A stretch of 64,000 nucleotides of DNA from Clostridium niameyense (GTDB lineage: Bacteria > Bacillota > Clostridia > Clostridiales > Clostridiaceae). The stretch is from contig NZ_LN849007.1 in NCBI RefSeq assembly GCF_001243045.1, positions 1,206,989-1,270,988 of the forward strand. The letters run 5' to 3'. The notes beneath the pieces are model-generated. The model was not told where the DNA came from and ran no database searches. It worked only from the letters and a program-made list of their open reading frames with translations. Of this stretch, positions 3,048 through 33,472 are shown in pieces (position 1 is the stretch's first letter; each line of letters opens with the position of its first letter). The position numbers were made by a program, and so were the translations under genes.

Positions 3048-4886
3048 ATGATTAAAAATAAAAAGAATATTGGAACAGAAATAACACTAAATAATGCTCT
3101 TTTAAATATAATTACTCCTATGGGACTTGAAATTAAAAGAAATAGTCTTGTTATAGGAGAAAATACAGGAAGAATTTATGGAATAGTGAAATACCCCCAA
3201 AAAGTAGATTATGGATGGCTTTCTAAAATTACAAATATACCAAGCACCATTGTCAGTGTAGCTTTTACACCTATTGATAATGGTGCTTTTATTGAGAGTC
3301 TTTCAAGAAATGTAATTCAAAGTCGAGGAGCTGCTGAAAGTGCCAAAGACCCATTATCACAAAAGAGAGCAGAACGTTCAGCTCAAGATGGAGAAAAGAT
3401 AATGGTTCAAATAGACCAAAATGGAGAAACAGTAGGACTTATGGGAATTACAATTATGCCCATATCAAGAGAAGATGAATCATTTAATAAAGTTTGTAGA
3501 AAGACTGAAAGTACTTGTGCCATGAGTAAATGCAAGCCAAGAAACCTTGCAAATTTGCAGGAGCAGGCTTTTAAAAATATATCTCCTTTTTATACTTCTG
3601 ATGAAAATATAGAGCAAATAGTAAGTAGAATAGTTCCACTATCCACCTTTGTAGGTGGATTTCCTTTTTCATCAAGTGGATATAATGATGGGACGGGCTA
3701 TTATTTTGGAAGAGATTCAAGTGGAGGGCTTATCATACTTGATACATGGAAAAGAGGAAATGATAGAACCAATACGAATATGGTTATAATGGGTGTAGCA
3801 GGAGTTGGAAAGTCTACTGCAGTAAAACATATAGCATTATCAGAGTATATGAAAGGAACTAAAATAATATTTATAGACCCAGAGTGCGAGTATAAAGAGT
3901 TATGTGAAGCTTTAAATGGAGATTGGATTAATGCAGGCGGTGGAAGCAATGGAAGAATAAATCCACTTCAAATAAGACCTACTCCAGTAGACGATAATGA
4001 TGAGATTTATAAAGATGAAGGACAAGGCATGGGAGATATGGCTCTTTATATTAAAAACTTAGAAATATTCTTTAGTCTTTATATTCCTTCCTTAACAGAT
4101 AGAGAAAGAGCTATACTTAAGGATTCTATAATAGAACTTTACAATAACTTCAACATTACTTGGGATACGGATATAAATACTTTAAGTAATGAAGAATTTC
4201 CAATATTCATAGACCTTTATAATTTGGTAGAAAAAAAAGCAAAGAAAAAAGAAAAAACACGTAAAGAAAGTGAAATAAATATATATGCAGATCTTGCTTT
4301 ACTTTTAAAAGATATAGCTATGGGAAGTGATTCTTTTCTATGGAATGGGTACAGTTCTATAAAAACCAACACAAGATGTATATGTCTTGATACCCATGAC
4401 CTTCAAAATACTAATGATAATATTAAGAGAACTCAATATTTCAATATACTTACATGGTGCTGGCAGGAGATGAGCAAAGATAGAAATGAAAAAGTGTTAT
4501 TAATCTGTGATGAAGCCTATCTTATGATTGATACCAATGTGCCTCAAAGCCTTGTGTTTCTAAGAAATGTAGAAAAGAGAGCAAGAAAATATGAGGCGGG
4601 AGTAGCTATAATAAGTCATTCAGTAGTAGATTTTCTTGATCCTCAAATAAAAATGTATGGACAAGCATTGCTTGATATACCTTGCTTTAAAGTTATAATG
4701 GGTACAGATGGCAGAAATCTACAAGAAACAAAAGAACTTTATAATTTAACAGATGCAGAAGAAGAACTTCTTGCAAGTAAAAAGAGAGGAAATGCTCTAT
4801 TAATGATAGGTTCAAAGAGGCTTCATGTAGTATTTGAGATACCGGAATACAAATTTGATTATATGGGGAAGGCTGGGGGAAGATAA
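3048..4886 (+). CDS. virB4: VirB4-type conjugal transfer ATPase
   Basis: A 612-residue type IV secretion ATPase that powers assembly of the mating channel. Walker A is GVAGVGKST at residues 249-257 and Walker B is the hydrophobic strand ending CDEA with Asp488-Glu489. The stretch IDPECEY shortly after Walker A and the C-terminal RNVEKRARK section are typical of VirB4. The N-terminal domain is short, consistent with the preceding gene supplying part of it. The layout resembles the VirB4 subgroup seen in clostridial Tn1549/CTn-like elements. It is intact and is the strongest evidence that the region is a conjugative element. Ribosome binding site AGGGAG precedes ATG 3048. Confidence 0.93.
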   Translation: MIKNKKNIGTEITLNNALLNIITPMGLEIKRNSLVIGENTGRIYGIVKYPQKVDYGWLSKITNIPSTIVSVAFTPIDNGAFIESLSRNVIQSRGAAESAKDPLSQKRAERSAQDGEKIMVQIDQNGETVGLMGITIMPISREDESFNKVCRKTESTCAMSKCKPRNLANLQEQAFKNISPFYTSDENIEQIVSRIVPLSTFVGGFPFSSSGYNDGTGYYFGRDSSGGLIILDTWKRGNDRTNTNMVIMGVAGVGKSTAVKHIALSEYMKGTKIIFIDPECEYKELCEALNGDWINAGGGSNGRINPLQIRPTPVDDNDEIYKDEGQGMGDMALYIKNLEIFFSLYIPSLTDRERAILKDSIIELYNNFNITWDTDINTLSNEEFPIFIDLYNLVEKKAKKKEKTRKESEINIYADLALLLKDIAMGSDSFLWNGYSSIKTNTRCICLDTHDLQNTNDNIKRTQYFNILTWCWQEMSKDRNEKVLLICDEAYLMIDTNVPQSLVFLRNVEKRARKYEAGVAIISHSVVDFLDPQIKMYGQALLDIPCFKVIMGTDGRNLQETKELYNLTDAEEELLASKKRGNALLMIGSKRLHVVFEIPEYKFDYMGKAGGR

Positions 4887-13594: not shown

Positions 13595-15285
13595 AGTTGT
13601 GTAGTTATGGGAAACATGATAATTGTAGTGAACTCTTTATTTAATTCATCATATTTCCAAGTCATATTTCCTGAATATTTATTAACGGCTTTTTCAATGT
13701 TTTTCATGCCATAACCATGACAAGTTATTTCTTGTTTACTAGATATTAATTTATTATTTTTTAGGATGGGATTTTTATCACAACTATTTATAAGTTTTAT
13801 TACAATAAAAGATTTATTAAAACAATGAAACTTTAATAAAATATTTTTATTATAACTTTTAATACAGCTTTCTATTGAATTATCTAATAAATTACTCATT
13901 ATAGCACACATATCCTTATTTTGTATAAAATCTAAATTAACTGATTGAACTTCATATTTAAAATTAATATTATATTTTTTCATTAAATGAATTTTATAAT
14001 TAATAATAATATCAAGTATTTTATTATTAGTTATAACAATATCTGATAATTGATTTATATCTTCGTTTATACTTTTAACATATTCCATGACCTTTTGTGA
14101 TTGCTCATCTTTGGCTAAAGCATTTATGCATATTAAATGATTTTTTATATCGTGAATAACTTCATTAGTTTTATCATATTTGCTTTCTAATATATTATAA
14201 TGTTGGGTAGTAATATCATTTTTTTGTTTTACTAAAGCTATTTCTTGTAGTTTTTTTGAGTTTAGTAATACAAAGCCAGTTATCCCGGATATAACAAAAC
14301 AAAGTATTGCTATTATTATAGTGGTATTGATTTGCAACTGCATATCTCTGTGAAAGACTTTGTTTTTTTTGCTAATTAATTCTTCTAAATCATCTAAATA
14401 TAATCCAGAAGATATAATCCAATTATATTTAGGATATAGTTTTGCATAGCTTAATTTATGACTAATATAGTTTGAATCTTTCTTTTTAAAATAATAATCA
14501 TGGAGTATCTCACCATTTTTTTTAATTCCTTGTAGTTCATTTAAATAAGGTAAATTACCTTTTACATCTTTAGTATTAGTAGATAATTTTTTACCCTCTG
14601 TTTCTAGAAGATTAGGATGGATCAATCTTATGGCATACTCATCCCCACCGTTATAATTTATTATCTGATTTATCCATATGTAACCATTATCATGTAAATT
14701 TGTATTTTTGATTTTATTTTTCACTCTATTTTTCACAGCTTCTTCAATGGTATCATTAGAAATACATAAAGCTATAATATTATTATTTTTTTCTATATAT
14801 TTATATGTATTTATTTTGTAGTTATTTACATAATTTATAAAGTGTTTTTCATTTTCAAAGTTTTTAACATTTATTTTTGGATTACTTGTATATATTAATG
14901 TATTATAGGATTTATCCCAAATTAAGATTTCTAATTTAGGGTTGGCTTTGATATATGGAGAAAAAAATTTATTTAAGGATTCCTTATTTTTAAAATCTAT
15001 ATTGTATGATTGAATAGAGTATAAATTATTAATAAAAGATTGAAGTGATTTTGAGGATTCCTCTAAAATAAATTCTCTTTCTATGTCAATTTCTTGTATT
15101 GTCCTGTCAATAATTTCCTTCAATCTATTTTCTTTTAATTCCATTATAGTATTATTTAGTTCTTTTAAATTGTTTTTATGTATTTTTTTCATATTGTATG
15201 TATAACAAAAAGAGAAAAATATTATAGATACTACACAAATCATTAATATGTATAGATATTTCTTTTCAAGTTTAATTTTCATCAT
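13588..15285 (-). CDS. Cache-domain GHKL sensor histidine kinase
   Basis: A 565-residue membrane kinase. Membrane spans are near residues 9-30 and 318-343, enclosing an extracellular Cache-type ligand domain (about 35-315; section around YIWINQ and WIISSGLYLDDLE). The phospho-acceptor is predicted as His378 in IHDIKNHL, typical of AgrC/VirS-type GHKL kinases, followed by the N-box (NLLDNSIESC) and the glycine box (GYGMKNIEKAV). It lies 41 bp downstream of the LytTR regulator in one leftward operon, forming a two-component system. Unlike AgrC it has an extracellular Cache sensor rather than six membrane spans, so it probably senses a small molecule. ATG 15285 or the adjacent ATG 15282 could be used. 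Confidence 0.85.
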   Translation of the reverse strand: MMKIKLEKKYLYILMICVVSIIFFSFCYTYNMKKIHKNNLKELNNTIMELKENRLKEIIDRTIQEIDIEREFILEESSKSLQSFINNLYSIQSYNIDFKNKESLNKFFSPYIKANPKLEILIWDKSYNTLIYTSNPKINVKNFENEKHFINYVNNYKINTYKYIEKNNNIIALCISNDTIEEAVKNRVKNKIKNTNLHDNGYIWINQIINYNGGDEYAIRLIHPNLLETEGKKLSTNTKDVKGNLPYLNELQGIKKNGEILHDYYFKKKDSNYISHKLSYAKLYPKYNWIISSGLYLDDLEELISKKNKVFHRDMQLQINTTIIIAILCFVISGITGFVLLNSKKLQEIALVKQKNDITTQHYNILESKYDKTNEVIHDIKNHLICINALAKDEQSQKVMEYVKSINEDINQLSDIVITNNKILDIIINYKIHLMKKYNINFKYEVQSVNLDFIQNKDMCAIMSNLLDNSIESCIKSYNKNILLKFHCFNKSFIVIKLINSCDKNPILKNNKLISSKQEITCHGYGMKNIEKAVNKYSGNMTWKYDELNKEFTTIIMFPITTQLN

Positions 15286-15326
15286 GTAATCCCACTTTCT
15301 TTATTATATATTAAATATCAATAATT

Positions 15327-16028
15327 TTATAATTGACCCAAAAATTCCATAAACTTTTTTTTGAAGTCTTTAAATTTTCTTTGTGAAACATATAAAGTTT
15401 CTCCATTTAGAAGAGTTATTCTATCTTTGTGAATTTCTACAACGTAATTTAAATTTACTAGAAAACTATTATGTGGATTAGCAAAACCAAAGGGTTGTAA
15501 TTTTTCATTCCAATGTTTCAACTTATATGAACTAACATAATTTCTAGAATTGTTAGTATGAATAATTACATTTCTACCCGCAATTTCTAAATGTGTTATG
15601 TCAGATATTAATATTTTTTTTAGGATTCCATTATTTTCGACAGTAATAAATATTTTATTTATTGTTGCAATTAAGTTTTTTATTTCATTATAAATAACAT
15701 CTTCATCCAAAGGTTTTAGAAAATATCTAAAAGCATTTACAGTGTATCCATCAGGCCAATATTTCTCTAAAGCAGTTATAAATACAATTTTTAAAGTTTC
15801 ATTTGATTTTCTAATTATTTTAGCTACTTCTATACCATTTAGTTGGGCCATTTGAATATCTAGAACTATAATATCATAATGATTATAATCCTGAGCTAAT
15901 AATTGCTCTCCTGTATAAAAGGTATCAATATTAAATTTAACATTTTCATTAATTGAGTACCTATTAAATAAATTACTTATTTGTTTTAATTGAATAGTAT
16001 TATCTTCACAAATGGCTATATTGTACAT
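15327..16028 (-). CDS. LytTR-family response regulator
   Basis: Start at ATG 16028, with GGAGG 8 bases upstream; the longer frame from 16088 lacks such a site. The 233-residue protein has a receiver domain with the acidic pair Glu8-Asp9, phospho-acceptor Asp57 (VLDIQM) and the switch Thr in FITA, then a LytTR DNA-binding domain (about residues 130-230). LytTR proteins such as AgrA, VirR and ComE bind two direct repeats spaced by about 21 bp. Exactly such a repeat lies about 110 bp from this start codon (16138-16168) and again upstream of the receptor at 19557, so this regulator likely controls the sensory island. First gene of the operon with the kinase. Confidence 0.9.
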   Translation of the reverse strand: MYNIAICEDNTIQLKQISNLFNRYSINENVKFNIDTFYTGEQLLAQDYNHYDIIVLDIQMAQLNGIEVAKIIRKSNETLKIVFITALEKYWPDGYTVNAFRYFLKPLDEDVIYNEIKNLIATINKIFITVENNGILKKILISDITHLEIAGRNVIIHTNNSRNYVSSYKLKHWNEKLQPFGFANPHNSFLVNLNYVVEIHKDRITLLNGETLYVSQRKFKDFKKKFMEFLGQL

Positions 16029-16137
16029 AGTCAAAACCTCCAGTTTAAATATATTATATAAATTATTTTTTGCATAATTTAATTTCAAATAAATAAGTAA
16101 CCTGTTTAAGGTAAAGATTATATATTTTTAATTATAA

Positions 16138-16206
16138 ATCGTTTTTGTAATAAAAAGCATCGTTTTTGAAAAAATATTGAAAATAATTAAATAGAAGGTG
16201 TATTTT
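16138..16206 (+). promoter_or_regulatory. Predicted LytTR-controlled promoter of the cheX remnant and receptor genes
   Basis: ATCGTTTTTG occurs at 16138-16147 and again at 16159-16168, a 21-bp period (two helical turns). Eight bp further are TTGAAA (16177-16182) and, after 18 bp, TATTTT (16201-16206), a weak promoter of the kind that needs an activator. The same arrangement is found at 19418-19486. It lies in the 333-bp divergent region between the LytTR regulator (leftward) and the cheX remnant (rightward), so it may also affect the regulator's own transcription. Confidence 0.65.
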
Positions 16207-16361
16207 TATAAAGAGAAAAATATAAAATATAAAATTTACATAATAGGTACACTTATACATATTTATGAGAAGATAAAAATGAAATAAATGAATTAATAAA
16301 ACAATTTTATAGAAGTGTGTTACATAAAAAAGAATTAAATGTTTTGAATGGAGGACATTAA

Positions 16362-16583
16362 ATGGATGTGAAACATATAAATCCATTTATAGATTCTTGT
16401 TTAAATATAATGTCTCAGCTTGGCTTTAAAGAGATTAAAAAGCAAGGTATTAGTATTAAAGAAAAGACTATAAATAGCTTAGGTGTAATGTTAACGCTAG
16501 GATTATTTGGAGATATTAAAGGCGTTGTTAGCTATTCTTTTCATGAAGAAAGTGCTAAAAATATTGCATTTGAAAATATTTAA
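16362..16583 (+). pseudogene. cheX: Truncated cheX (chemotaxis phosphatase), N-terminal half
   Basis: A 73-residue open frame with ribosome binding site GGAGG 9 bp before ATG 16362. The sequence follows the start of CheX closely (MDVKHINPF, GLFGDIKGVVSYSF, then a segment on the way to the first conserved helix) but stops at TAA 16581. CheX proteins are about 150-160 residues and carry the catalytic E-x2-N residues twice; the retained part ends at or before the first of these, so it cannot be a functional CheY-P phosphatase on its own. The 65 bases after the stop do not encode the missing part. It sits first in the operon with the receptor at 16649. Confidence 0.75.
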
Positions 16584-16648
16584 AATATAGTCATTATACA
16601 TAATAGCAGTAGGTTTTTAGATTTTAATTAGAATAAGGAGGGTAACAA

Positions 16649-18340
16649 ATGAAGTTTAAAGGTATTAATATGAAAATAAGAACAAAATTAAGATTATTAA
16701 TGATGTTTGTAGGTATAATTATGGTGGCTGCAACATTTAAATTTTTTCATACACTAAGTGAAATTGAAGGAGATTCTACTGTTATCAATTTGTCAGGGAG
16801 TGAAAGGATGAGGAGTTATAAATTGGCTTATACTGCTCATCTATACATGAATGAGAAGGATAATAATAAAAGGAATAAGATTAAAGAAACAATAAAAAAT
16901 GAAATAGGTATTTTTGATGAAATTCTTCAAGGTATAGAAAAAGGAAGCGACAAATTAGGTACAGATGGAATAAATAACAAAGAAGAAATAGAACATATTA
17001 CTTTAGTTAATAAAAAATGGAATAAAATGAAAGAGAAATATAATAATATTATAAATTCTAATGATGAAGTATTAAAGAAAGCTAGTATCCAGTATGTAAA
17101 TGAAAATGTAGATGAGGTAGTAAAAGAATTAAATGAACTAGTAAATCATTTTGATGATGAATCGGTTATAAAAATAAAAAAATCTAAAATAAATACTTAT
17201 ATTTTTTTATTTTTAATGATTATTATAATGTTATTAGCATTTAGTATTATTCACAAAGGGGTAATAAAACCAATAGATGATATAAAAAATAGAATGAAAG
17301 AAATTGCAAGTGGTGAAGGAGATTTAACAAAGAGGATAGATATAACTACAAAAGATGAAATAGGAGAACTTTCACTATGGTTTAATTTATTTATTGAAAA
17401 CATTGAGAAAATAATCAAATCAATACTAGAAACTTCTAAAATTACAAAAGAAATTTCAGCTCAAATATCCGATTCAGCTTTTGAGAATAGTGAAGCTAAT
17501 GAAAGCATAGCATTCTCAGCTCAAGAAGTTTCGCAGGGAAGTAATGAACAAAGCTACGAAGTTGAGGCTCTATTTGTAAAGGTTGAAGAAATGACTAATA
17601 AGATAAAATCTATAAATAAAATAGTAAAAAATGTTGTATATAATGCTAAAAAATCACAAGATGAATCTGAAAAAGGAAATATTAAAATAGAAGATACTAA
17701 AGAACAGTTAGATTCATTAAAAGATACAATAAATGAAATGGATGTAAAAATGACACAACTTGATACAAATTCAAAGGAAATAAGTAAAATTATAGAGTTG
17801 ATAGAGGGTATTTCAAACCAAACCAATCTTCTAGCCTTAAATGCTTCAATAGAAGCAGCAAGGGCAGGAGAAATGGGTAAAGGGTTTGCTGTAGTCGCAG
17901 AGGAGGTAAGAAAACTTTCAGATGAAACAGAAAGTGCAACTAAAAGTATAGTTCCATTTATTCAAGATGTTCAAAACAATGTGTATTCAATAAAAAATAG
18001 CATGCAAGAAGTAATAAAGGAACTGGATGAAGAGTTTAAGGTTTTAAATGATACAATAAAAACTTTAGGACTTATTTTGGAGGGAAGCAAAAATACTGTA
18101 GCAGGGGTGGACAATGCTAATGAAATATTAGGAGAAATAAATAATAGTTTTGAAATAATTAAAGGAGCATTCAAAAATATAACTGAGGTAACAAAAAATA
18201 ATTCTGATAATATGCAAAATATTGCTGCTTCGGTTCAAGAACAATCAGCATCAACAGAAGAAATTTCTACATCTATATCAAATCTTTCTTCAATGATAGT
18301 TAATTTGAATAATAATATATCTGGATTTAAAGTAGATTAA
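16649..18340 (+). CDS. Methyl-accepting chemotaxis protein with PilJ-type sensor
   Basis: A 563-residue transmembrane chemoreceptor. Membrane spans lie near residues 14-32 and 183-203, with an extracellular domain opening with the [12 protein letters not shown] motif of PilJ/NarX-type sensor domains (often nitrate-binding or four-helix). A HAMP domain follows (about 205-255) and then the signalling coiled coil with a hairpin tip resembling the canonical form ([19 protein letters not shown]). Ribosome binding site AAGGAGG precedes ATG 16649. It is 65 bp downstream of the cheX remnant and likely shares its LytTR-type promoter. It is ICE cargo, since transfer genes lie on both sides of the island. 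Confidence 0.9.
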
Positions 18341-18390
18341 AGCAGAAGCTATCTAAGATTTATAGGTTAAAATTATGACTGTATCTAACA

Positions 18391-18417
18391 TACAAGGTGT
18401 TTTTAAAACACCTTGTA
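18391..18417. terminator. Bidirectional hairpin terminator
   Basis: TACAAGGTGTTTT (18391-18403) pairs with AAAACACCTTGTA (18405-18417). It lies between the converging receptor and tyrosine recombinase genes. Confidence 0.75.
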
Positions 18418-18436
18418 TTATTACTAATATATATAC

Positions 18437-19036
18437 TTATACCATTTCACTTGTTTGTTCAAGTTTCATATACATTTTTTCTTGTTGTTTTGTGGTAAAT
18501 TGAAAATAAATTTCAGTATTAGAAACAGATTTATGCCCAAGCCACCATTGAAGTTCTTTAATATCCATTTCCGACTCAGCTAAATGAACAGCGGTTGTGT
18601 GTTTAAGGGTATGAAAATGATGTTTGCTTTTATCGCTAATATTGGCTATTTTACAATACTTTTTCATTAAATAATCAAGAGTTTGTCTAGAAATAGGATT
18701 GTTTTTCTGGCTTTTAAATAATATTTCAGAATTACAAGATATTTTATAATTACTTATATATGTATCAAGAGCTTTTTTAGTTTTAAGATCAAGTCTTATG
18801 GTATTGTTATTACTACCTTTTAATCTTCTACAGTAAAGAGCTCCATTATTTTCATTGTAATCATCTAATTTTATAAGAGAAATTTCAGATGCTCTTAAAC
18901 CACATCTATAAGCCACTCTAAATAATGCTAAGTCCCTAACGGCATGGGAGCTATCTAAAGACATAATTGCATTAAAAAATTTAGTTGCTTCTTGTTGTGT
19001 TAAATATTTCATTTTTTTGTCGGAATTTTTTTGCAT
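18437..19036 (-). CDS. Small FimB/FimE-like tyrosine recombinase (predicted invertase)
   Basis: A 199-residue protein consisting of the catalytic domain only, the size of FimB/FimE-type invertases and shorter than usual phage integrases. Predicted active-site residues are Arg48 (CGLRASE), Lys73 (LKGSNN), His142, Lys145, His168 (LGHKS) and the nucleophile Tyr177. Position 145 is normally Arg (HxLRH); here it is HTLKH, a change found in some Firmicute recombinases. Its start codon lies only 26 bp from a pair of perfect 21-bp inverted repeats (19062-19263), and a promoter inside them points at this gene. It therefore most likely flips that segment rather than integrating an element. Ribosome binding site AGGAGA. 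Confidence 0.82.
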   Translation of the reverse strand: MQKNSDKKMKYLTQQEATKFFNAIMSLDSSHAVRDLALFRVAYRCGLRASEISLIKLDDYNENNGALYCRRLKGSNNNTIRLDLKTKKALDTYISNYKISCNSEILFKSQKNNPISRQTLDYLMKKYCKIANISDKSKHHFHTLKHTTAVHLAESEMDIKELQWWLGHKSVSNTEIYFQFTTKQQEKMYMKLEQTSEMV

Positions 19037-19061
19037 AGTTGTTCTCCTTTGGATAATTGTA

Positions 19062-19263
19062 CAAAATAAATATTTTGTATAATAATTATACCAAAAGATA
19101 GAAAATAATCAAAGTTTTTATGAAAAAAATTCAACTTAATAATATATAATGGTTTATTTTTACTAATCCCAAACAATATATTGGGTAAAATGAAATAAAA
19201 TGTAATATCAGTAAATTTAGATAATGCTGAATTGAATAAATTTTATACAAAATATTTATTTTG
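19062..19263. repeat. Predicted invertible segment with perfect 21-bp inverted repeats
   Basis: CAAAATAAATATTTTGTATA plus one A (19062-19082) recurs in perfect inverted orientation at 19243-19263, enclosing 160 bp. Each repeat also contains a dyad (CAAAATA / TATTTTG around a two-base centre, AA on the left and TT on the right), the usual form of a core site for a tyrosine recombinase. A well-formed promoter lies inside and currently points left to the recombinase gene. Inversion would turn it towards the chemoreceptor genes at 19557 and 21348. No other function for the repeat is apparent. The rest of the 520-bp gap (19037-19556) holds the LytTR-type promoter and otherwise plain AT-rich DNA. 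Confidence 0.72.
19085..19112 (-). promoter_or_regulatory. Promoter inside the invertible segment, now facing the recombinase gene
   Basis: On the minus strand TTGATT (complement of 19107-19112) is followed after 16 bp by a consensus TATAAT (complement of 19085-19090). The -10 box lies about 50 bp before the recombinase start codon. After inversion the same boxes would occupy about 19213-19240 on the plus strand and fire towards the receptor at 19557. Confidence 0.65.
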
Positions 19264-19417
19264 CCTAATCAATAATACAGTCTATTAATTCAAATGTAAA
19301 TATAAAGAATCAAACTATAAAGGAACTAATATCCATTACAAATTAATTTATAAAACTTAAGAATTGTATTTTATTTTTCTAAATTAAGTTATATATTGAA
19401 AAATTTTGAAAAATATT

Positions 19418-19486
19418 ATCGTTTTTGCAATAAAAAGCATCATTTTTGAAAAAATATTGAAAATGAATAAATTTAAGATGTAAAAT
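19418..19486 (+). promoter_or_regulatory. Second predicted LytTR-controlled promoter
   Basis: ATCGTTTTTG (19418-19427) and ATCATTTTTG (19439-19448) repeat the 21-bp spaced pair seen at 16138. TTGAAA (19457-19462) and, after 18 bp, TAAAAT (19481-19486) follow at identical distances. About 50 bp are nearly identical to the 16138 region while the neighbouring DNA differs, so this block is conserved as a regulatory unit. It should drive the receptor gene at 19557. Confidence 0.65.
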
Positions 19487-19556
19487 ATGCTAAGAAAAAA
19501 TTACATAAATTACATAATAAAAATATTTATGCATATTAAGAAGGAGGAGATAAATT

Positions 19557-21269
19557 ATGAATTTTTTTAAAAAACTTACAATATCCACTAGAGTAATAGC
19601 AATGATTTTTATAGCTATTATTTCAATGATGATTATTGGTGGCGTAGGAATACTTAACATGAACAAAATTAATAAGTCAGCTAAATATTTAAATAATATT
19701 ACTATACCATCACTTAATTCTATTAATAAAATAGATAAAAATCTACTAAATATTTATCAAAATGAAAAATTAATGATGTATATTAAGGATAAAAATGAAA
19801 TAAATGAATTAAGAAAACAAATCAATAATTTACAAAAAGATAACGATAAGCAAATTAAAATTTATAAATCAACTATTGATGATGAGGAAGAAAAGAAGAT
19901 ATTTAATGAGTTTGAAAAAAAACTTGCTCAATATAGGGATTATAGATATGAATATGAAAAATCAATTTCTAATGGAAACATAGGTGAGGGTACAAGTAAA
20001 TTTGTAAATATTACAAAGGCACGAAATGATATGAGAATTCAATTAGATAGATTAGTGCAATTAAACAAACAATGGGTAGAAGAAGCGGCAGATGATGATG
20101 CAAAGGTGTATAGTAGATCAATCACAATGATTACAATTTTTATTATTGCTATGAGCATATTTTTTAGTTTACTTGGATTTTTAGCATTGAAGCGTCTAAA
20201 AAAAGCATTAAATGATATAAAAGCTCTAGCTGAAAGATTATCTAATTATGACTTTTCAATTCCAGTAAAAATAGAAAGAGTTGATGAACTTGGACAAATA
20301 GGTGAAGCATTAAATAAGGCACAAGAAAATGTAGGTTCTTTAATAAAAAGTGTTATGAATAGTGCTCAAGAGATAAGCGCATCCAGTGAGGAATTGTCAG
20401 CAACTGTTGAGGAAATGACTTCAAAATTTGAAAGTATAAATGCCTCAACAAAAGAGATTAATTCTGGAGTACAAGAAACCAGTGCCACAGCAGAAGAGGT
20501 TTCAGCATCAATGCAGGAGGTAGATTCTAGTGTTTCTGTATTATCAAATAAAGCTGTGGATGGAAGTAGTAATGCCATTGAAATAAAGGATAGGGCAACT
20601 AAGGTTGAACAAGATAGTAAATCAGCAGTTAAAAACACGAGAACGATTTATATTGAAATGGAAAAAGAAGTTTTAAAGAATATTGAACAGGGAAAAGTTG
20701 TTGAAGATATTAAAGTTATGGCAGATACCATTGCAAGTATATCAGAACAAACTAATTTATTAGCACTTAATGCGGCCATAGAAGCAGCAAGGGCAGGAGA
20801 ACAGGGAAAAGGTTTTGCTGTAGTTGCAGAGGAAGTAAGGAAACTAGCAGAACAATCTTCAATTGCTGTAGAAAATGTTAAATCTACTATAGAAAAAGTA
20901 CAAGGAGCTTTTAAAGATTTATCTAAAAATAGTAGTGGATTATTAAATTTTATGAGTGATAAAGTTGTTCCTCAATTTGAAACTTTTGTACATGTAGGAG
21001 AGCAGTATGAGAATGATGGAAATTTTGTAAATGGCATGTCTGAAGAACTAGCCTCAATGACAGAAGAAATTTCAGCAACCATAAATCAAGTTAGCGAAGC
21101 AGTTCAGAATATGGCAGAAATGGCTCAAAGATCTTCAGAAAATTCCAATGGAATACAAGAAAGTATTAATGAATCTACTAAAGCTATGGAACAAGTAGCA
21201 CATACAGCTCAAAGTCAGGCAGAACTTGCACAAGAACTTAATGAAATGGTTCTAAGATTTAAAGTTTAA
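19557..21269 (+). CDS. Methyl-accepting chemotaxis protein with four-helix-bundle sensor
   Basis: A 570-residue chemoreceptor. Membrane spans near residues 11-32 and 190-210 flank a four-helix-bundle-type extracellular domain; a HAMP domain (about 212-265) and the methylation/signalling coiled coil follow. The hairpin tip is close to canonical ([20 protein letters not shown], then [18 protein letters not shown]). Ribosome binding site AAGGAGGAG precedes ATG 19557. Upstream are a predicted LytTR-type promoter and, further out, the predicted invertible promoter, so its expression may be both ligand-controlled and phase-variable. The next receptor follows after 78 bp. Confidence 0.92.
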
Positions 21270-21347
21270 AATTGAGAAGTTATTTATAGGAGTTTAAGAG
21301 AAAAGAAGCAAATTAACAGAATTAAAGAATAATAAAGGAGCAGTAAT

Positions 21348-23108
21348 ATGTTTAAAAAATCTAATGATGGAATAAAGAAAAGATTATTTAAGTCATATCT
21401 TGGAATGTTTATTTTATTTTTTATTTCAATTGTAGTAGTTACTTTTGTTTCATTTATTGGCGCGAAAAATACACTAACTAAACTAGGGGAACAAGCTTTA
21501 AAAAATAGAATTAATATGGGTATTGAAATGATGGACATGCTAGAAACTCAAGTTAAAAATTCTAAGATAACAAGAGAGGAAGCACAGGAAATATTTAGAA
21601 CCAAAATGTTAAATAAGAAAAGCAGTGATGGTAAGACTAGAGGATTAAATAAAAAATTAGAGCTTGATATTGAAGCATATATGTATGCTATAGATAGCAA
21701 TGGAAATGAAAAGATGCATCCTTTTAAGGAAGGAGAGAATATTTCAAAGGTAGTTGATAATAAAGGACAAAATGTTACTAAACTTATTATTGATGAAGGA
21801 AAAAATCCTAAAAATGACGGAATAATAACATTTTCATGGAAAAATCCTGGAGAAAAGAAAGCCAGAGATAAAGTAAATGCTGTGGCTTATTATGAGCCTT
21901 GGGATTGGTATTTAAATGTAGGATGCTATTATAAAGATTTTTATGGGAATATAATTCAAATATTTCTTAAAATATTAATAGTAACTGTAGTTGTCTTAGT
22001 ATTAAGCATATTTTTAATAAGATTTATGATAGCTAAGAAAGTTGAGCCATTAAACAAATTAATCGAATTGATGAAAAAAATAGGTGATGGAGATTTAAGC
22101 TCTAAAACAGATGTTAATTCAAAGGATGAATTAGGATATATGGCTAATATATTAAATAACACCTTAGATGAAATAAAATCTATAATAATAAGTCTTAAAA
22201 GTGTTTCAGAAAAAATAAATGAAAAGGTTAAGTATGTAAATGAAGCTAGTGAAAGCACTCTTCAAGCTTCACAACATATAACAGAAGCAATAGAAGAAAT
22301 TACTTGTGCTGCAGGGGATACTACAAGGGATATGGAAGTAAGTGCTAGTGCAGTAGCAGATTTAACTAATAATATTGGTTCTATTAAAGACACAAGTTTA
22401 CTTTTGCAAAATGAAGCTGTTAATGCAGGAAAACTGAATTCTAATGTACTAAACATATTAAAAGATTTAGAAGAAAAAAGTTCAGAAAACTTTAATTTAT
22501 CAGAAGAAACTGCCAATAATATGAATTTATTAAATGAAAAATCAAATACAATAGTTGAGATAATAAATACCATAGAAAATATATCTAGGCAGATTAATTT
22601 ATTGGCACTAAATGCATCTATTGAAGCATCAAAAGCAGGAGATGCTGGAAGAGGTTTTTCAGTAGTGGCTCAAGGAATAAAAGATTTATCATCACAAACA
22701 GAGGAAGCTACAGATCAAATAAATGAACATATAAATGAGCTTATAAAAGCAATTGAGTATTCAGGAGAAAGTGTTATAAAAACAAAACAATCTTCGGAAA
22801 TTCAAAGAAATACTATAAATGAAACACAAGGTATTCTTAAAGAAGTTATAAGATTTATAGAAGAGATTCCGAAACATATAAAAAACAATGTTGACAAAAT
22901 AGAAGAAACTTATAATAAAAAGGATATGGTAAATAATTCTATGAATTCAGTATTAAGTTTAACACAAGGTATATCAGCAGCTACAGAAGAAATAGCATCC
23001 TCAATAACAGAGGTAAATAAAAATATATCAGAAATAGATGATATGATAAAAGATTTAGATAATAATGCAAATGAGCTAAGTGAAAAATCAGATAAATTCA
23101 AACTTTAA
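21348..23108 (+). CDS. Cache-domain methyl-accepting chemotaxis protein with divergent tip
   Basis: A 586-residue chemoreceptor. Membrane spans near residues 16-38 and 203-225 enclose a single Cache-type domain (about residues 40-200, ending [15 protein letters not shown]). HAMP follows, then the signalling coil. The hairpin tip departs from consensus: [19 protein letters not shown] and [12 protein letters not shown] where most receptors have EAARAGE and [10 protein letters not shown]. The change may affect coupling to CheA/CheW, or suit a divergent partner. It is 78 bp after the preceding receptor, with ribosome binding site AAAGGAG, and probably shares its transcript. A terminator follows at 23194. 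Confidence 0.9.
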
Positions 23109-23193
23109 ATAGAGATGCAAGAAATTTCACATATGTATGGAGAAAAGGCTTTAAATAGAGAACAATAACAAATATACAATAAATAATTTAAGG

Positions 23194-23227
23194 GAGTCAC
23201 ATAGTTTTTATGTGGCTCTTCTTTTTT
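23194..23227 (+). terminator. Rho-independent terminator
   Basis: GAGTCACATA (23194-23203) pairs with TATGTGGCTC (23209-23218), followed by TTCTTTTTT. It ends the receptor operon before the first sigma-like gene. Confidence 0.85.
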
Positions 23228-23351
23228 GGGGAAAAGGTAGGCATAAGGGATGGACAATATTTCAACAAATAAAAAATAAAATAAAAAACAATAAGAATTT
23301 ATTAGAGGGGGAGCCATAGAGCTTCCTTATTTTTGTGGAAGGAGTAGAAAA

Positions 23352-23762
23352 ATGTCTGAAAAAATAAATGAAAACAATAATTATGAAAAAGTGATGGAGT
23401 TCATGAAGGAAGAAGAAAGAAAGGAAAAAAATCATAATAGGAGATATTACAGACATAACATTTCACTTGAGTATCTACAAAAACAAAATGTACCCGTAGA
23501 ATTCCAATATTTAAAAAGTGGGTTTGGCTATGAAAAGGAATTTGATGAGCCATTAGATTTTATTGACTTAATTAAAAATCCAGAGTTAGCAAAAGCCTTA
23601 AAAATTTTAAAACAATTAGATATAAGAGTTATTGAACTTAAGTATAGATTAGGATTTTCACTATACGAAATTTCTTTAAAATTAGGAATAAAATATGATG
23701 CAACTAAAAAAATACATATAAGAGCTTTAGCAAAGCTTAAAAAATTTTTAGATAAAACTTAA
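23352..23762 (+). CDS. Sigma-70 region 4-like ICE regulator, copy A
   Basis: A 136-residue protein with a basic N-terminal motif (RRYYRHNISLEYL at about residues 29-41) and a C-terminal helix-turn-helix of the sigma region 4 type (about residues 90-130: IELKYRLGFSLYEISLKLG). Such small sigma-like proteins regulate transfer genes in Tn916- and Tn1549-like elements. It is clearly paralogous to the gene at 24821, sharing both motifs. Ribosome binding site GGAAGGAG before ATG 23352. Its 3' flank contains TTTGAAAACTTAATATA, also present after copy B. Confidence 0.75.
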   Translation: MSEKINENNNYEKVMEFMKEEERKEKNHNRRYYRHNISLEYLQKQNVPVEFQYLKSGFGYEKEFDEPLDFIDLIKNPELAKALKILKQLDIRVIELKYRLGFSLYEISLKLGIKYDATKKIHIRALAKLKKFLDKT

Positions 23763-23943
23763 AAAATTTTAAAATATTTGTCCCTTTTTTTGTTCTCGCG
23801 TGGCTATATAATAAGCAGGTAATTTAGTTAGTTTTATTGTTCTTTGAAAACTTAATATAGAAAAATATTACTATGTAGCTTCAATAACCTAAAAGAAACA
23901 TTACTAGACTTATATAACATTTAAAATGTTAAAAAAATAACAT

Positions 23944-24037
23944 AAACTGTCTTAAAACATAAAGAAAACACAATATATTGATTATTATTATATTGAAAAT
24001 CAACATATTGTGTATAAAGTTCATTTTAAGACAGTTT
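23944..24037. repeat. Nested palindrome in the 23.76-24.07 kb gap
   Basis: AAACTGTCTTAAAA (23944-23957) is perfectly complementary to TTTTAAGACAGTTT (24024-24037). Inside, ACACAATATATTGATT (23968-23983) pairs with AATCAACATATTGTGT (23998-24013) with one mismatch. The double hairpin ends 32 bp before the ArpU-like gene at 24070. It could be a leader structure, a double-stranded binding site or a small inverted-repeat element. The rest of the 307-bp gap has only the TTTGAAAACTTAATATA leader near 23,850. Confidence 0.7.
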
Positions 24038-24069
24038 TTATATAAAAATAAAATGCAAGGAGGAATAAA

Positions 24070-24570: not shown

Positions 24571-24677
24571 TAATATTTCAATTCTAAAATATTGAGACTA
24601 AATAGGCACTATTTTGGTACGGACACTAAAATTTAATACTGTTAACATATATACAATAGGAATATTATGGAGTCTTG

Positions 24678-28517: not shown

Positions 28518-30185
28518 ATGGAATTTTCAAATGAAAACAAAATCTATAATACTGCTATCTATTTAAGACTTTCAAAAGATGATGGAGATAAAGAGGAAAG
28601 TGATAGCATTTCAAATCAAAAAGAGCTTATCAAAGAATACTTAAAGTCAAAAGCTGATATCAACATTTGTTCAATACAAGTGGATGATGGATATAGCGGT
28701 GTTGACTTTAATCGTCCTGCATTTATAGAAATGATGGAAGAAATCAAAGCCGGTAAGATTAATTGTATAGTTGTAAAAGACCTTTCCCGTTTTGGGAGAA
28801 ATTACATTGAGACAGGAAAATATATTCAAAAGATATTTCCTTTTCTTGGTGTGCGATTTATTGCTATAAATGATAATTATGACAGTGTGGAAGGTACTAA
28901 TCTTACCGATAACATTATAATACCATTTAAAAATCTTATAAATGATTCTTATTGTAGGGATTCTTCAATTAAAATTAGAAGTCAGTTAGAAGTTAAACGT
29001 AAAAAGGGAGATTTTATTGGGGCTTTTGCAGCTTATGGTTATAGGAAAAGTGAATTTTGCAAAAATAAGCTTGTAATAGATGATTTTGCGGCTAGTGTAG
29101 TTCGTGATATTTTCAAGTGGAAGATAGAGGGTATGAGCCAGCAAGGTATCGCAAATAAATTAAATGAAATTGGAATCTTATCACCAATGGAATACAAACG
29201 TTCCCTTGGTCAAAGGTATAATACTACTTTTAAGATTAAGGAGCAAGCTTTATGGTCAGCAGTAGCTGTGAGAAGAATACTAACTAATGAACTTTATTTA
29301 GGTGTGCTAGAGCAAGGGAAAAGAACAACTCCAAACTATAAAGTAAAAGCAAGAATTGAAAAACCTAAGGAAGAATGGATAAGAATTGAAAATGCTCATG
29401 AGCCGATAATTACAAAAGAAATGTTTGAAATTGTAAATAATCTTTTACTACAGGATACTCGTATTGCACCAAAGGAAGATAAGGTATATATTTTTTCAGG
29501 AATTGTAACTTGTGGAGATTGTAAAGAAAATATGATACGTAAAACTGTACCTGTGAATGGGAAAAAATATTTTTACTTTACTTGTTCAACTAATAGAAGA
29601 GACAAGCATAGCTGTACTACTCATAGCATAAGTGAAAAGGCTTTTGAAGAAGCAGTTTTAAATGCTTTAAATGCCCACATAAGTAGTATTATGAATATTG
29701 AAAACATGCTAAATTATATAGAAACATTACCTTATAGACAGAAAGCCATATTAAAGTTGGATGCTCAAATACTAAAAGCTCAAGAAGAAGTTGAAAAAAT
29801 TCAGAGGTATAAGCTTGCTTCTTATGAACACTTTGTAGATAAAATAATTACAAAAGAAGAATATAGATCACATATTAATAGATATAATGCTAAGCTTGAA
29901 AAAGCTGAAAAACTAATATTTAAAAGAAATCAGGAAATAGAAGAAATTATTAACAATAGAACAACAACAAGTCTTTGGATACAGGATTTTAAAAAATATT
30001 TAAATATAACAGAACTTAATAGACAAGTTGTTGTATCTTTAATAAAAAAGATATATGTTTATGAAAATAGAAAAATAGAAATTTTATTTAAGTATCAAGA
30101 AGAATTTGAAAATGCACTTAGCTTTATAGAAAGTGCCAGTAAATCACAATCCTTTGATTTATCTACTAAAGGGGTGGTGATTTAA
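28518..30185 (+). CDS. Large serine recombinase 1 of 3
   Basis: A 555-residue site-specific recombinase. The N-terminal resolvase domain has the nucleophile Ser19 (YLRLS) and the conserved segment IVVKDLSRFGRNYIETG. A recombinase domain follows, then a zinc ribbon (CGDCKEN...CSTNRRDKHSC) and a long coiled coil (about residues 410-475), as in TndX/TnpX-type enzymes that excise and integrate mobile elements. Its segment DSYCRDSSIKIRS differs from the other two copies (AKDIS or SKDLS). Ribosome binding site AGGAGG. Only one base separates it from the next recombinase, so all three are made together. Confidence 0.93.
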   Translation: MEFSNENKIYNTAIYLRLSKDDGDKEESDSISNQKELIKEYLKSKADINICSIQVDDGYSGVDFNRPAFIEMMEEIKAGKINCIVVKDLSRFGRNYIETGKYIQKIFPFLGVRFIAINDNYDSVEGTNLTDNIIIPFKNLINDSYCRDSSIKIRSQLEVKRKKGDFIGAFAAYGYRKSEFCKNKLVIDDFAASVVRDIFKWKIEGMSQQGIANKLNEIGILSPMEYKRSLGQRYNTTFKIKEQALWSAVAVRRILTNELYLGVLEQGKRTTPNYKVKARIEKPKEEWIRIENAHEPIITKEMFEIVNNLLLQDTRIAPKEDKVYIFSGIVTCGDCKENMIRKTVPVNGKKYFYFTCSTNRRDKHSCTTHSISEKAFEEAVLNALNAHISSIMNIENMLNYIETLPYRQKAILKLDAQILKAQEEVEKIQRYKLASYEHFVDKIITKEEYRSHINRYNAKLEKAEKLIFKRNQEIEEIINNRTTTSLWIQDFKKYLNITELNRQVVVSLIKKIYVYENRKIEILFKYQEEFENALSFIESASKSQSFDLSTKGVVI

Positions 30186-30186
30186 G

Positions 30187-31884
30187 ATGGCAAGAAAAAG
30201 CAGAAGGCAATCAGAAAGTATAAATGTTGTTGCAGAAGTAAAAGAAAAAGTATTTAAAACAGCTCTATATGTAAGGCTTTCTATAGAAGATGTACGTGAT
30301 AGAAAAGATAGTGATTCTATAGAAAATCAAACATATCTACTTAAACAATTTGTTGAGGAAAGACCTTACTTACAAGTGTATTCTATATATATAGATAACG
30401 GAGAAAAAGGCACAAATTTTGATAGACCAGAGTTTAATAGGCTTATGGATGATATAAAGGCTCAAAAGGTAAACTGTATAGTTGTAAAAGATTTATCACG
30501 TTTTGGAAGAGATTATATTGAAACAGGCAATTACCTTGAAAAGATTTTTCCTTTCCTTGGAGTAAGGTTTATATCTATTAATGATAATTATGATAGCTTT
30601 AGACCAGAATGTGATAATGAAGGTTTAATAATATCACTTAAGAATCTTCTAAATGATGTTTATGCCAAGGATATATCTAAAAAGATAATATCAAGTTTTA
30701 GAGATAGGCAGTCCAAAGGAGAATTTTTAGGAGCTCATGTACCTTATGGGTATTTAAGACCTACGGACGGGAGTTATAAGTTAATTATAGATGAAGAAGC
30801 AGCTAAAGTAATTAGGCTTATATATAGATGGAAAATTAAAGGACTTAGTGATACTAAAATTGCAAGAAACTTAAATGATTTAAGTATACCATCACCTAGT
30901 AAGTATAAATATTTAAAAGGTAAGTGGAAAAATATTCGTTATAATGATAGCATTTGGCAAAGACAAACAATAAAAACTATAACAGAAAATGAAGTGTACT
31001 TAGGACATAAAATTTATGGTAAAGTACAGGCTTCTCTTTATGAAGGTAAAAAGAAATCAAGGGTATCAAAAGATCAATGGAGAATAATTGAAAATGATCA
31101 TGAACCTATAATTGATAAGGAAACTTTTAATATTATTCATGAAGAAAGATTAAGAGTATATGATGCTTTTATTGAAAGGATTAACAAGAATAAATGTTAT
31201 GAAAATAGCCAAAATGTTTTTAAAGATATTGCAGTATGTGGGGATTGTAAAACTAATTTAGTTAGACGAAGGAGGATAAAAAATAGCAAACTAAGCTATT
31301 ATTTTTCTTGTATTACCTTTGAAACAAATAGTGGCTATAAGTGTACAAGGAAGCATATTTTAGAAAAAGATTTAATAAATGCTGTTTATTGTAGTATAAC
31401 AAAGCAAATAGAGATTTCTATAAAAATAGAGAACTTAGTTGCAAAGTTGAGAGCTAATGCCAGCTTTTTAAGCTCTAAAGAAATAAATTTAAGTAAATTA
31501 AGAAAAATTGAAACAGAAATTAAAAGAAAGCAATCTTTGTCTAACATAATTTATGATGATTATATAGAAGGAATAATTTCTCATCAAGAATATCTTTATG
31601 CTAAAACTAAATATGAAAATGATACAGTAAAATTAAAAGAGAAGAAAAGTGAGCTGCAAATTGAATGTAGAAAGTATAATGAAAATTATTTAAAAGAAAA
31701 TAAATGGATGTCTAAAATAAATCTGTTTAAGAAAGAAGAAAAGCTTACTAGAGAAATAGTTACAGCACTTATAGAGAGAATAGAAATTTATAATATTAAC
31801 AGAGTAGAGGTTATATTCAAGTTTCACGATGAATATCTAGAAATACTAAATGATTTTGGTATTGCCGAGGAAGAGGTGATATAA
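30187..31884 (+). CDS. Large serine recombinase 2 of 3
   Basis: A 565-residue paralogue of its neighbours, with nucleophile Ser32 (YVRLS), the core segment VVKDLSRFGRDYIETGN, a zinc ribbon (CGDCKTN...CITFETNSGYKC) and a C-terminal coiled coil. A basic 20-residue N-terminal extension (MARKSRRQ) is absent from the other two. It is 1 bp downstream of recombinase 1 and 1 bp upstream of recombinase 3, indicating strict co-expression. All catalytic motifs look intact. Confidence 0.93.
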   Translation: MARKSRRQSESINVVAEVKEKVFKTALYVRLSIEDVRDRKDSDSIENQTYLLKQFVEERPYLQVYSIYIDNGEKGTNFDRPEFNRLMDDIKAQKVNCIVVKDLSRFGRDYIETGNYLEKIFPFLGVRFISINDNYDSFRPECDNEGLIISLKNLLNDVYAKDISKKIISSFRDRQSKGEFLGAHVPYGYLRPTDGSYKLIIDEEAAKVIRLIYRWKIKGLSDTKIARNLNDLSIPSPSKYKYLKGKWKNIRYNDSIWQRQTIKTITENEVYLGHKIYGKVQASLYEGKKKSRVSKDQWRIIENDHEPIIDKETFNIIHEERLRVYDAFIERINKNKCYENSQNVFKDIAVCGDCKTNLVRRRRIKNSKLSYYFSCITFETNSGYKCTRKHILEKDLINAVYCSITKQIEISIKIENLVAKLRANASFLSSKEINLSKLRKIETEIKRKQSLSNIIYDDYIEGIISHQEYLYAKTKYENDTVKLKEKKSELQIECRKYNENYLKENKWMSKINLFKKEEKLTREIVTALIERIEIYNINRVEVIFKFHDEYLEILNDFGIAEEEVI

Positions 31885-31885
31885 A

Positions 31886-33472
31886 ATGTTTAGTATTAAG
31901 AATGTGGCTATGTATATAAGACTTTCTAATGAAGATAACGATATTTCTAAAAGTAATACAAAAATTGAAAGTAACAGTATAAGTAATCAAAGAGACTTAA
32001 TTACTTATTTTATAAAAAATCATGAAGAACTTAAAAATTATAATATTATTGAGTTTTGTGATGATGGATATAGTGGAACTAATTTTGAAAGACCTTCAGT
32101 AAAAAAGCTTATTACAAAGGTAAAACAGAGGGAAATAGAATGTATAGTAGTAAAGGATTTTTCAAGATTTGGTAGAAATTATTTGGAACTGGGAGATTAT
32201 TTAGAGCAAGTGTTTCCTTTTCTAGGCGTAAGGTTCATATCAATTAATGATGGATATGATAGTGCTAGGGATAGTGGTATTACAGCAGGATTAGATGTAG
32301 GACTAAAGAATCTTATTTATGATCTTTATAGCAAGGATTTATCTGAAAAAATAAAGAGTGCAAAACTTGCTAAGATGAAAAAGGGAGAATATATAGGTTC
32401 ATTCCCATCTTACGGTTATATCAAGGATAAAAATAAAAAGAATTCTCTTTTAGTTGATATGGAAGCAGCTGTTATTGTAAAGAAGATATTTAAGCTTGCT
32501 ATTGAAGGAAAAAGCACAAGTGAAATAGCTAAAATTCTTAATTCAGAAGAAATATTACCACCAGCAAAGAGATATCAACAACTTTATCAAAATAAAAAAT
32601 GGAAGAATAAAGACAATTTATATTGGTCTACAATAGCAGTGTTAAAAATACTTAGAGATGAAATATATTTAGGGAAAACTATTAACCATAAGAGACAATC
32701 TAATATTGTAGGATCTAAAAATAATGTAGCAGTTTCAAAAGATGAATGGATAACTGTATCTAATACTCATGAATCCATTATAAGTGAAAAAGATTTTAAA
32801 GAGGCTCAAAAAGTAATGAATAAGTACAAAAAAAGAAAGAAAAGACAGCCAGTAGAAGATAGGATAATATATTCTAAAATAAGATGTGGTGGATGCAAAA
32901 AATGTTTGCTACGTTCACATACAAAAGAAATCTATTATAAATGCAGAACAAATCATTATAGCGACAACAATTCTTGCTTCAAAGGTAGAATTAATGAGAG
33001 CGTAATAATGGACGTGCTTTTAGTAGCTATTAGAAATCAAGCACTTTTAGCAAATCAAGAAGAGAAACTTGCTGCAAAATCACTGAAGATATATGAAGAT
33101 GAAGTCCTTAAAGCGGCACAAAATCTAAGGAAATCTCAAGAATATCAAGAAAGATTAAATTCTATAAAAATAGAGGAATACGAAAAATATTTAGATGGCA
33201 AAATCAGCAAAGAAGAGTATCTTTCTAAAAGAGATAAAATCAGCAAGGATATTGAAAAAGTAGGGGCAGAAATAAGCAATTTACAAGTTTCTTATCAGTC
33301 CTTAATTAAAAGAAAAGACCAGAATGAGTTTGCTGAACATTTCAAAGGTAAGCATGAAATTAGCGAGCTAAATAGGGAACTGGTTGATGAATTTGTTGAG
33401 GCTATTTATATTTATGGGGAAAAAGAGATTGAGATAGTTTGGAAGTTTAGTGATAAACTGAAGGGATTCTAA
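31886..33472 (+). CDS. Large serine recombinase 3 of 3
   Basis: A 528-residue large serine recombinase with nucleophile Ser14 (YIRLS), core segment VVKDFSRFGRNYLELGD, a zinc ribbon (CGGCKKC...CRTNHYSDNNSC) and a coiled coil to the end. It is the shortest and most divergent of the three tandem enzymes. Being encoded last and closest to the element end, it may be the partner that completes the integration complex. It is followed by a palindrome at 33512 and by cargo genes. Confidence 0.93.
   Translation: MFSIKNVAMYIRLSNEDNDISKSNTKIESNSISNQRDLITYFIKNHEELKNYNIIEFCDDGYSGTNFERPSVKKLITKVKQREIECIVVKDFSRFGRNYLELGDYLEQVFPFLGVRFISINDGYDSARDSGITAGLDVGLKNLIYDLYSKDLSEKIKSAKLAKMKKGEYIGSFPSYGYIKDKNKKNSLLVDMEAAVIVKKIFKLAIEGKSTSEIAKILNSEEILPPAKRYQQLYQNKKWKNKDNLYWSTIAVLKILRDEIYLGKTINHKRQSNIVGSKNNVAVSKDEWITVSNTHESIISEKDFKEAQKVMNKYKKRKKRQPVEDRIIYSKIRCGGCKKCLLRSHTKEIYYKCRTNHYSDNNSCFKGRINESVIMDVLLVAIRNQALLANQEEKLAAKSLKIYEDEVLKAAQNLRKSQEYQERLNSIKIEEYEKYLDGKISKEEYLSKRDKISKDIEKVGAEISNLQVSYQSLIKRKDQNEFAEHFKGKHEISELNRELVDEFVEAIYIYGEKEIEIVWKFSDKLKGF

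Follow-up and report, generated by a model that had tools for sequence, protein, structure and literature searches.

Does the short DNA segment that lies between two perfect inverted repeats upstream of chemoreceptor genes in Clostridium niameyense act as a switch for these genes? The repeats are found in a stretch of 64,000 nucleotides (hereafter the window, meaning this whole stretch), for which the initial annotation had proposed an invertible promoter, a neighbouring recombinase and chemoreceptors as targets. The comparison with relatives described below supports this arrangement, and we consider it very probable that the locus is a phase-variation cassette in which the recombinase inverts a 160-bp promoter segment, switching between itself and the chemoreceptors. 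It belongs to a clostridial family of cassettes that target chemoreceptors, GGDEF/EAL proteins or both, and the copy in the window appears to be carried on a conjugative element. In the proposed mechanism, the recombinase would act on two near-palindromic sites and invert the segment between them. As the segment is now oriented, its promoter would drive the recombinase, and the chemoreceptor genes from 19557 onwards would be left without it (OFF). After inversion, the promoter would drive the 4HB and Cache chemoreceptor genes, while the recombinase would lack the promoter of the segment (ON). As an outcome, cells would differ in the stimuli that they follow. In relatives we observed a common site, a better promoter end, both orientations, exact deletion and a strict site pair only together with the recombinase. 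From these we infer that the segment inverts in the strain of the window as well, with the recombinase as the agent and with effects on transcription and behaviour.

The two repeats (19062-19082 and 19243-19263) are reverse complements at 21 of 21 positions and can be extended to 28 nucleotides at a 93% match (19062-19089 and 19236-19263). They enclose a spacer of 160 bp, and are the sole pair of perfect 21-nucleotide inverted repeats with a spacer of 30-400 nucleotides in the window; 100 dinucleotide shuffles of the window yielded no such pair. Each arm also has a dyad of its own, forming a near-palindromic site with the core ACAAAATAAATATTTTGT or its complement. The left core (ACAAAATAAATATTTTGT, 19061-19078) has no mismatch to the core of the family and the right core (19247-19264) has one, and the 18-bp core is identical to its own reverse complement except for the two bases at its centre. 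Paired inverted recombination sites around a short segment, as in switches of this type, are thus present in the window, and both the repeats and their individual dyads were correctly described in the initial annotation. The promoter that it had reported was also located, as a promoter-like TTGATT-16-TATAAT running on the minus strand from 19112 to 19085 towards the recombinase gene. Since 11 promoter-like sites were found between 18300 and 19700 against 14.0 ± 4.4 in shuffles, the consensus match alone was discarded as promoter evidence, being at chance level; the weight of this site comes from its conserved position in relatives. The recombinase has the 199 residues first given for it, and the gap between the left repeat and its start codon measures 25 nucleotides rather than 26 bp. 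A riboswitch in the leader was considered and rejected, as positions 16000-24000 of the window gave no credible Rfam match; among 14 of the 59 fetched loci of relatives, Rfam pointed to one T-box and one lysine riboswitch, neither of them at the switch. The coordinates of the features are given in the table.

Features of the switch locus and of the element that carries it (positions within the window)
Feature	Position	Strand	Basis or remark
VirB4-like conjugation ATPase	3048..4886	+	NCBIfam NF045975, E 6.1e-114, 381.6 bits, under the 590-bit cut-off
PilJ-type chemoreceptor	16649..18340	+	Pfam; behind the recombinase and convergent with it
Tyrosine recombinase, 199 aa, catalytic domain only, presumed invertase	18437..19036	-	Pfam Phage_integrase, 6.7e-35
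Left recombination site (dyad)	19057..19082	+	Core 19061-19078, inverted repeat arm 19062-19082
Putative invertible segment, 160 bp	19083..19242	.	Between the arms; equivalents inverted or deleted in relatives
Promoter-like TTGATT-16-TATAAT, TG before -10, facing the recombinase	19085..19112	-	Sequence; -10 ends 6 nt from the core
Right recombination site (dyad)	19243..19268	-	Core 19247-19264, inverted repeat arm 19243-19263
Leader from right arm to first chemoreceptor, 293 nt	19264..19556	+	No credible Rfam match
4HB-type chemoreceptor, 570 aa, first presumed target	19557..21269	+	Pfam 4HB_MCP_1, HAMP, MCPsignal
sCache_2 chemoreceptor, 586 aa, second presumed target	21348..23108	+	Same direction; Pfam sCache_2, HAMP, MCPsignal
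Three consecutive large serine recombinases	28518..33472	+	Context, carrying element

The recombinase had been described as FimB-like, which is apt for its size and type but not for its affinity. It missed the cut-offs of the FimB-type models (NF007370, 74.5 bits versus 221; NF007371, 62.4 versus 222) as well as those of the Xer models (NF040815, 114.8 bits versus 220; TIGR02225, 108.4 versus 329.6; TIGR02224, 103.1 versus 335.15), and its scores with XerA/XerD models were above those with FimB-type models; matches to the XerA, XerC and XerD models cover only their C-terminal part. The recombinase belongs to a clade of its own. Residues R48, K73, H142, K145, H168 and Y177, which we take to be the catalytic R-K-H-R-H-Y positions of tyrosine recombinases, were unchanged in all 16 aligned sequences (the window recombinase and 15 homologues picked from the 59 described below). 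The position of the second catalytic arginine is therefore a lysine (Lys 145) throughout, while the other five of the six catalytic positions are kept; in 4a8e, an XerC-like recombinase and the best solved structure by sequence, it is an arginine. Because of this lysine, recombinase activity is not to be assumed.

A scan of genome contigs, in which the window protein aligned with its Ilyobacter homologue served as the query, returned 33 loci, 24 of them at 67-80% identity and mostly titled Clostridium, with C. ljungdahlii among the species named. For counting, this set was later replaced by a family-wide one, consisting of 206 genomes from the family of C. tetanomorphum (G001), among which 59 homologue places (E <= 1e-40; four of them partial) were detected in 51 genomes. 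For positions 47800-50500 of the window, the highest DNA identity reached in these 206 genomes was 76%, with two candidates scored per genome. A sample of 391 genomes from the class contained eight with a match at E <= 1e-35: three at 55-61% identity, the other five being already in the family set. In a tree that left out the four partial homologues (L122-L125), the window recombinase and 52 site-bearing or cut homologues were placed on one side of a branch with a support of 99/95, and three intact homologues without upstream sites were placed with the outgroups on the other. Two distant homologues from outside the site-bearing group (L121 and L161, 59-61%), which lack the 18-bp site, lie beside type I restriction specificity genes, the HsdS call resting on Pfam for L121 and on similar ORFs for L161. 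Among viral contigs, six stretches matched a pattern and none encoded a relative of the recombinase, and the 161 phage records retrieved were all below 60% identity to it. Plasmids gave no DNA match to positions 12000-31000 of the window; their best protein match (44%) was from Ilyobacter, and the 20 annotated features surrounding it include no chemoreceptor.

Two sites were identified directly upstream of the recombinase at 33 of the 59 places: at 31, both cores have at most four mismatches and the segment is readable, at one an N-run lies between the sites, and at one the sites are variant. The segment measures 144-181 bp across the 31 readable loci and the window. At four more places (G001, G106, G011 and G041), the two sites are located at a distance of about 1.7-3.9 kb. 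A single site is present at eight, with no second copy at up to three mismatches in the 7.6-9.6 kb fetched, and the contig ends at the site region at seven, six of which have one site visible. The remaining seven places have no site directly upstream; four of these are partial genes, and another (L120) is preceded by a match with four mismatches and, about 3 kb upstream, by one copy with a single mismatch. Since the loci share descent, these counts do not represent independent events. Of the 206 genomes, 15 show a strict two-site pattern, all of them among the 51 with the recombinase and none among the 155 without it; a reversed-pattern control gave no match. This distribution bears on the identity of the agent, as the inversion could be real but carried out in trans by another recombinase, with the neighbouring gene as a passenger or a target. 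Other tyrosine recombinases, at about 25-35% identity, were present in all 17 genomes checked, and the lysine at the second catalytic arginine position also fits this explanation, as does the case of C. difficile, where RecV alone serves several remote switches according to the part of PMC5903667 available. However, it is difficult to reconcile with the restriction of strict site pairs to recombinase-bearing genomes, with the placement of the sites directly upstream of the gene (or within 4 kb in four more cases), and with the tree, in which the three intact homologues that lack upstream sites fall outside the clade of site-bearing ones. We regard action in trans as highly unlikely, and the neighbouring recombinase as the probable agent.

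Four orphan switches without an adjacent family recombinase were also detected, all of them beside chemoreceptors, and three of the four are the same locus in related acetogens (L136, L137 and L138). These three were considered as a case of orientation difference and rejected, the promoter end facing away from the MCP gene in all of them. One orphan switch upstream of a chemoreceptor has two sites in G107 and one in its close relative G106 (L143 4557 versus L128 5664-5858). At another locus of G106 (L142, 4205-5640), two ORFs separate the recombinase from the two-site switch, the first being transposase-like by eye, and in G047 (L144, 3429) a lone site lies just upstream of an MCP gene, away from the recombinase.

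Next we consider the orientation of the promoter, scored in 32 loci (31 relatives and the window; L085 was left out for its Ns and L090 for a second site more than four bases off). The better outward promoter end was on the recombinase side in 29 of the 32, including the window, and on the target side in three (L077, L089 and L111), with its -10 six to eight bases from the core. This end scored at least 11 in 26 of the 32 loci versus 6 of 1600 single shuffled ends, a control that kept base composition but not dinucleotides and in which one end was scored against the better of two in real loci. By score, an outward promoter is thus predicted near one end of the segment in all 32 loci, the margin between the ends being small in five of them (one point in L082 and L110, two points in L083, L091 and L105). 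The uniform direction in 29 loci, together with the near-palindromic and operator-like nature of each arm, might suggest that nothing inverts and that the repeats serve as operators for a regulator, or as a structural element, on either side of a fixed promoter. Against this stand the three loci with the opposite direction, one of which, L111, has a segment that matches those of its close relatives L093, L106, L114 and L118 at 72-75% when reversed versus 60-64% unreversed.

Also strongly against a fixed promoter, both junctions occur in a single assembly (G021), where the promoter end and its site, identical at 37 of 37 bases, are joined both to the recombinase flank (C1:1-122) and to a flank with GGDEF-EAL and 4HB chemoreceptor genes (C1:14490). 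The two ends of the segment can be distinguished, since they are only 87% alike over 38 bases in G020, a relative. Among the 40 of 217 candidates scored in the G021 assembly, none contained the remaining half of the segment. A double junction of this kind is the pattern of a mixed population, and is strong evidence but not proof, as G021 is the sole single assembly with both junctions, and these extend over 37 bp next to a gap in the scaffold.

In seven assemblies besides G021, the sequence stops or is interrupted by an N-run at the switch. At 7 of the 59 places, the distance from the recombinase to a contig end on the switch side is 23-136 bp; on the other side no contig end falls within 250 bp, and 0.4 would be expected within 250 bp. 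Both flanking contigs start at the site or one base before it in G152 and G107, and the partner contig ends at most 42 bp from a site in G018, G110 and G138. By Pfam, the partner contigs carry GGDEF-EAL genes in G152, G110 and G018 and MCP genes in G107 and G138. A search for a partner contig in G133 found none, and in G008 the N-run lies between the two sites. G110 and G138 were rejected as instances of both orientations, the former because its two flanks have only six inner bases in common and the latter because it looks like one orientation. Contig breaks and differences between species are indirect evidence of inversion. Exact site-to-site deletions were found in two comparisons (G137 versus G005 and G115 versus G116), in which the segment and one site are gone and one site is left. 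As the core is symmetric except at its centre, the sites might occasionally align in the wrong sense, which presumably leads to deletion. The breaks at the site, the exact deletions and the confinement of strict site pairs to recombinase-bearing genomes all speak against operators around a fixed promoter, which we consider very improbable. Relatives therefore show both orientations, the outcome of the search for the reverse orientation in related genomes that the initial annotation had suggested (3 of 32 loci opposite, L111 reversed and both junctions in G021), and an invertible segment remains the preferred explanation.

The genes on the target side were read away from the switch in 34 two-site loci (the 33 above, including L085 and L090, and the window). 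They were called by BLAST to 13 reference proteins, of which the ten from outside the window were checked with Pfam. A chemoreceptor or c-di-GMP gene was among the first two genes in 32 of the 34 loci, with a chemoreceptor only in 10, both in 13, and a c-di-GMP protein only in 9. The two misses were L110, with a histidine kinase before an MCP gene, and L112, with an MpsC-domain gene. Signalling genes were found on the other flank in 7 of the 34 loci, at 4 of the 8 single-site loci, and at none of the 7 site-less places, four of which are partial. As for the loci with far sites, the neighbours are GGDEF-EAL and 4HB MCP genes in G001, a 4HB MCP gene in G011, a GGDEF-EAL gene facing a GGDEF-HD gene in G041, and an MCP gene, recognized by motif only, in G106. 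The switch of G041 (L140, 5634-5839) lies between PAS-GGDEF-EAL and GGDEF-HD genes on opposite strands, as if choosing between c-di-GMP enzymes. In G001 (L139, 5189-9277) it is upstream of an operon of GGDEF-EAL and chemoreceptor genes, and the recombinase is convergent at the far end with a single site beside it. In G018:C55 (L129), inserted ORFs interrupt the 4HB chemoreceptor gene that follows the GGDEF-EAL target.

On the one hand, the aim of the promoter at the recombinase in 29 of the 32 loci could mean that the segment inverts mainly for self-regulation of the recombinase, with the chemoreceptors mainly on promoters of their own. The 293-nucleotide leader and a consensus-like site in front of the first chemoreceptor gene of the window are consistent with this, and this gene may have its own promoter at 19457-19486 (TTGAAA-18-TAAAAT, a chance-level match). 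On the other hand, a chemoreceptor or c-di-GMP gene would not be expected on the target side of 32 of 34 loci if the recombinase were the main beneficiary, and self-regulation makes no sense at the four orphan switches, which have no family recombinase next to them. We consider this explanation unlikely, and favour control of the target genes. The PilJ-type chemoreceptor of the window is outside the aim of either orientation. Were the recombinase produced in the OFF state alone, cells would be expected to gather in ON, and yet 29 of the 32 sequenced loci are OFF. This bias could reflect low levels of the recombinase, a second promoter outside the segment, or an ON state that is disfavoured or selected against in culture.

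That the locus belongs to an ICE, as claimed at the outset, is supported by the VirB4-like ATPase and the three large serine recombinases of the window, and by a relative in which the same backbone carries the recombinase; the relaxase and the ends of the element were not located, the left end being beyond the window. This relative (G016:C187) has a 73% homologue of the switch recombinase and the same backbone order as the window, with VirB4 at 94%, a YoaA-type helicase at 62%, a sigma-like gene, and a serine recombinase at only 25-26%. The recombinase and the conjugation genes of G009 are on different contigs and may belong to separate elements, and over the 19 kb inspected in G115 the backbone has no recombinase of this kind. 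In relatives, the switch is mostly found away from the ICE backbone of the window, and its targets include c-di-GMP enzymes. Because the first 12.6 kb of the window were matched in 16 of the 206 genomes (E <= 1e-20) versus 51 for the recombinase, the ICE has probably acquired a switch that occurs mainly in other settings, a direction of transfer that we infer. Other cargo includes a Cache-domain GHKL sensor kinase and a LytTR response regulator (13588-16088) which adjoin the three chemoreceptors, pointing to a sensory gene cluster on the element. Positions 5188-10510 are defence-like, with proteins of 552 aa and 277 aa matching PADLOC PDC-M01A/PtuA and PDC-M01B and one of 737 aa matching PDC-S46; the backbone of G009 is without the 552-aa and 277-aa genes. 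Between 34699 and 40665 there are a metallo-beta-lactamase-fold protein (LmuA model), a 998-aa trypsin/dynamin-like protein, and a DUF3427 helicase which, as its match to type IV restriction enzymes starts only at model position 342, is missing the N-terminal part.

The E. coli fim switch consists of a small tyrosine recombinase with a catalytic domain only (FimB or FimE) beside an invertible promoter segment, and its targets are fimbriae. The clostridial cassette is similar in having a small, catalytic-domain-only recombinase next to such a segment, but differs in its higher Xer than FimB-type scores, in the lysine that replaces the second arginine, and in a promoter that faces the recombinase gene when the target is off. 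It also resembles the RecV switches of C. difficile in the use of a tyrosine recombinase and short regulatory segments, some of them linked to motility or signalling (available parts of PMC5903667, PMC6837544 and PMC7446863). The RecV switches are scattered, and the accessible text of PMC5903667 describes only Cdi7, which is RecV-independent, as having an adjoining recombinase. In Clostridioides difficile, the pdcB switch is an invertible promoter of 174 bp with imperfect 19-bp repeats which is located 840 bp upstream and drives a PAS-GGDEF-EAL protein; its recombinase is stated as not identified in the available sections (PMC9286219), and excerpts of PMC5903667 report a partial effect of RecV on the pdcB site. 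Several members of our family resemble pdcB in their PAS-GGDEF-EAL targets and segments of 144-181 bp. Here, by contrast with pdcB, the recombinase adjoins the switch and a chemoreceptor is often next in the operon; the word chemotaxis is absent from the text of this paper on pdcB and pdcC (PMC9286219).

Phase-variable chemoreceptors on a conjugative element had been thought to be new. Phase-variable chemoreceptors as such are not, as signatures of inversion close to chemotaxis genes of Clostridia were published from sequencing reads in 2018 (Sekulovic et al., PMC5903667, cited here from its available portions). The general principle therefore predates the cassette described here. In those portions, short invertible sites are reported near methyl-accepting or other chemotaxis genes of Anaerotignum propionicum and C. 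thermocellum, and signalling and chemotaxis are named as the commonest functions in the vicinity of clostridial invertible sites. Unlike for the present cassette, no recombinase, site sequence, promoter or mobile element is described there for these chemotaxis-linked loci. Under the terms used, no description of the recombinase and site family, of the recurrent behavioural targets or of an ICE-borne switch was found in open-licence papers.

Tentatively, and with rather more doubt than confidence, these loci can be envisaged as a portable behaviour switch of clostridia, in which one recombinase lineage with lysine in place of arginine and its near-palindromic site have been repeatedly coupled to chemoreceptors and c-di-GMP enzymes. 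Such a switch would operate remote copies in trans, be spread by conjugative elements, silence its own recombinase on turning the receptors ON, and, its site being symmetric apart from the two central bases, lock a locus permanently by excision of the promoter segment. The cassette family might explain the signatures of inversion that were reported close to chemotaxis genes in 2018. By means of the recombinase and its 18-bp site, such switches could be located, locked and examined throughout Clostridium, even in species for which there are no reads. Chemotaxis is usually viewed as graded sensing with a fixed set of receptors. Here, a genetic coin toss appears to decide on the receptors that a cell makes, and in relatives also on its c-di-GMP enzymes, and a conjugative element seems to carry it.
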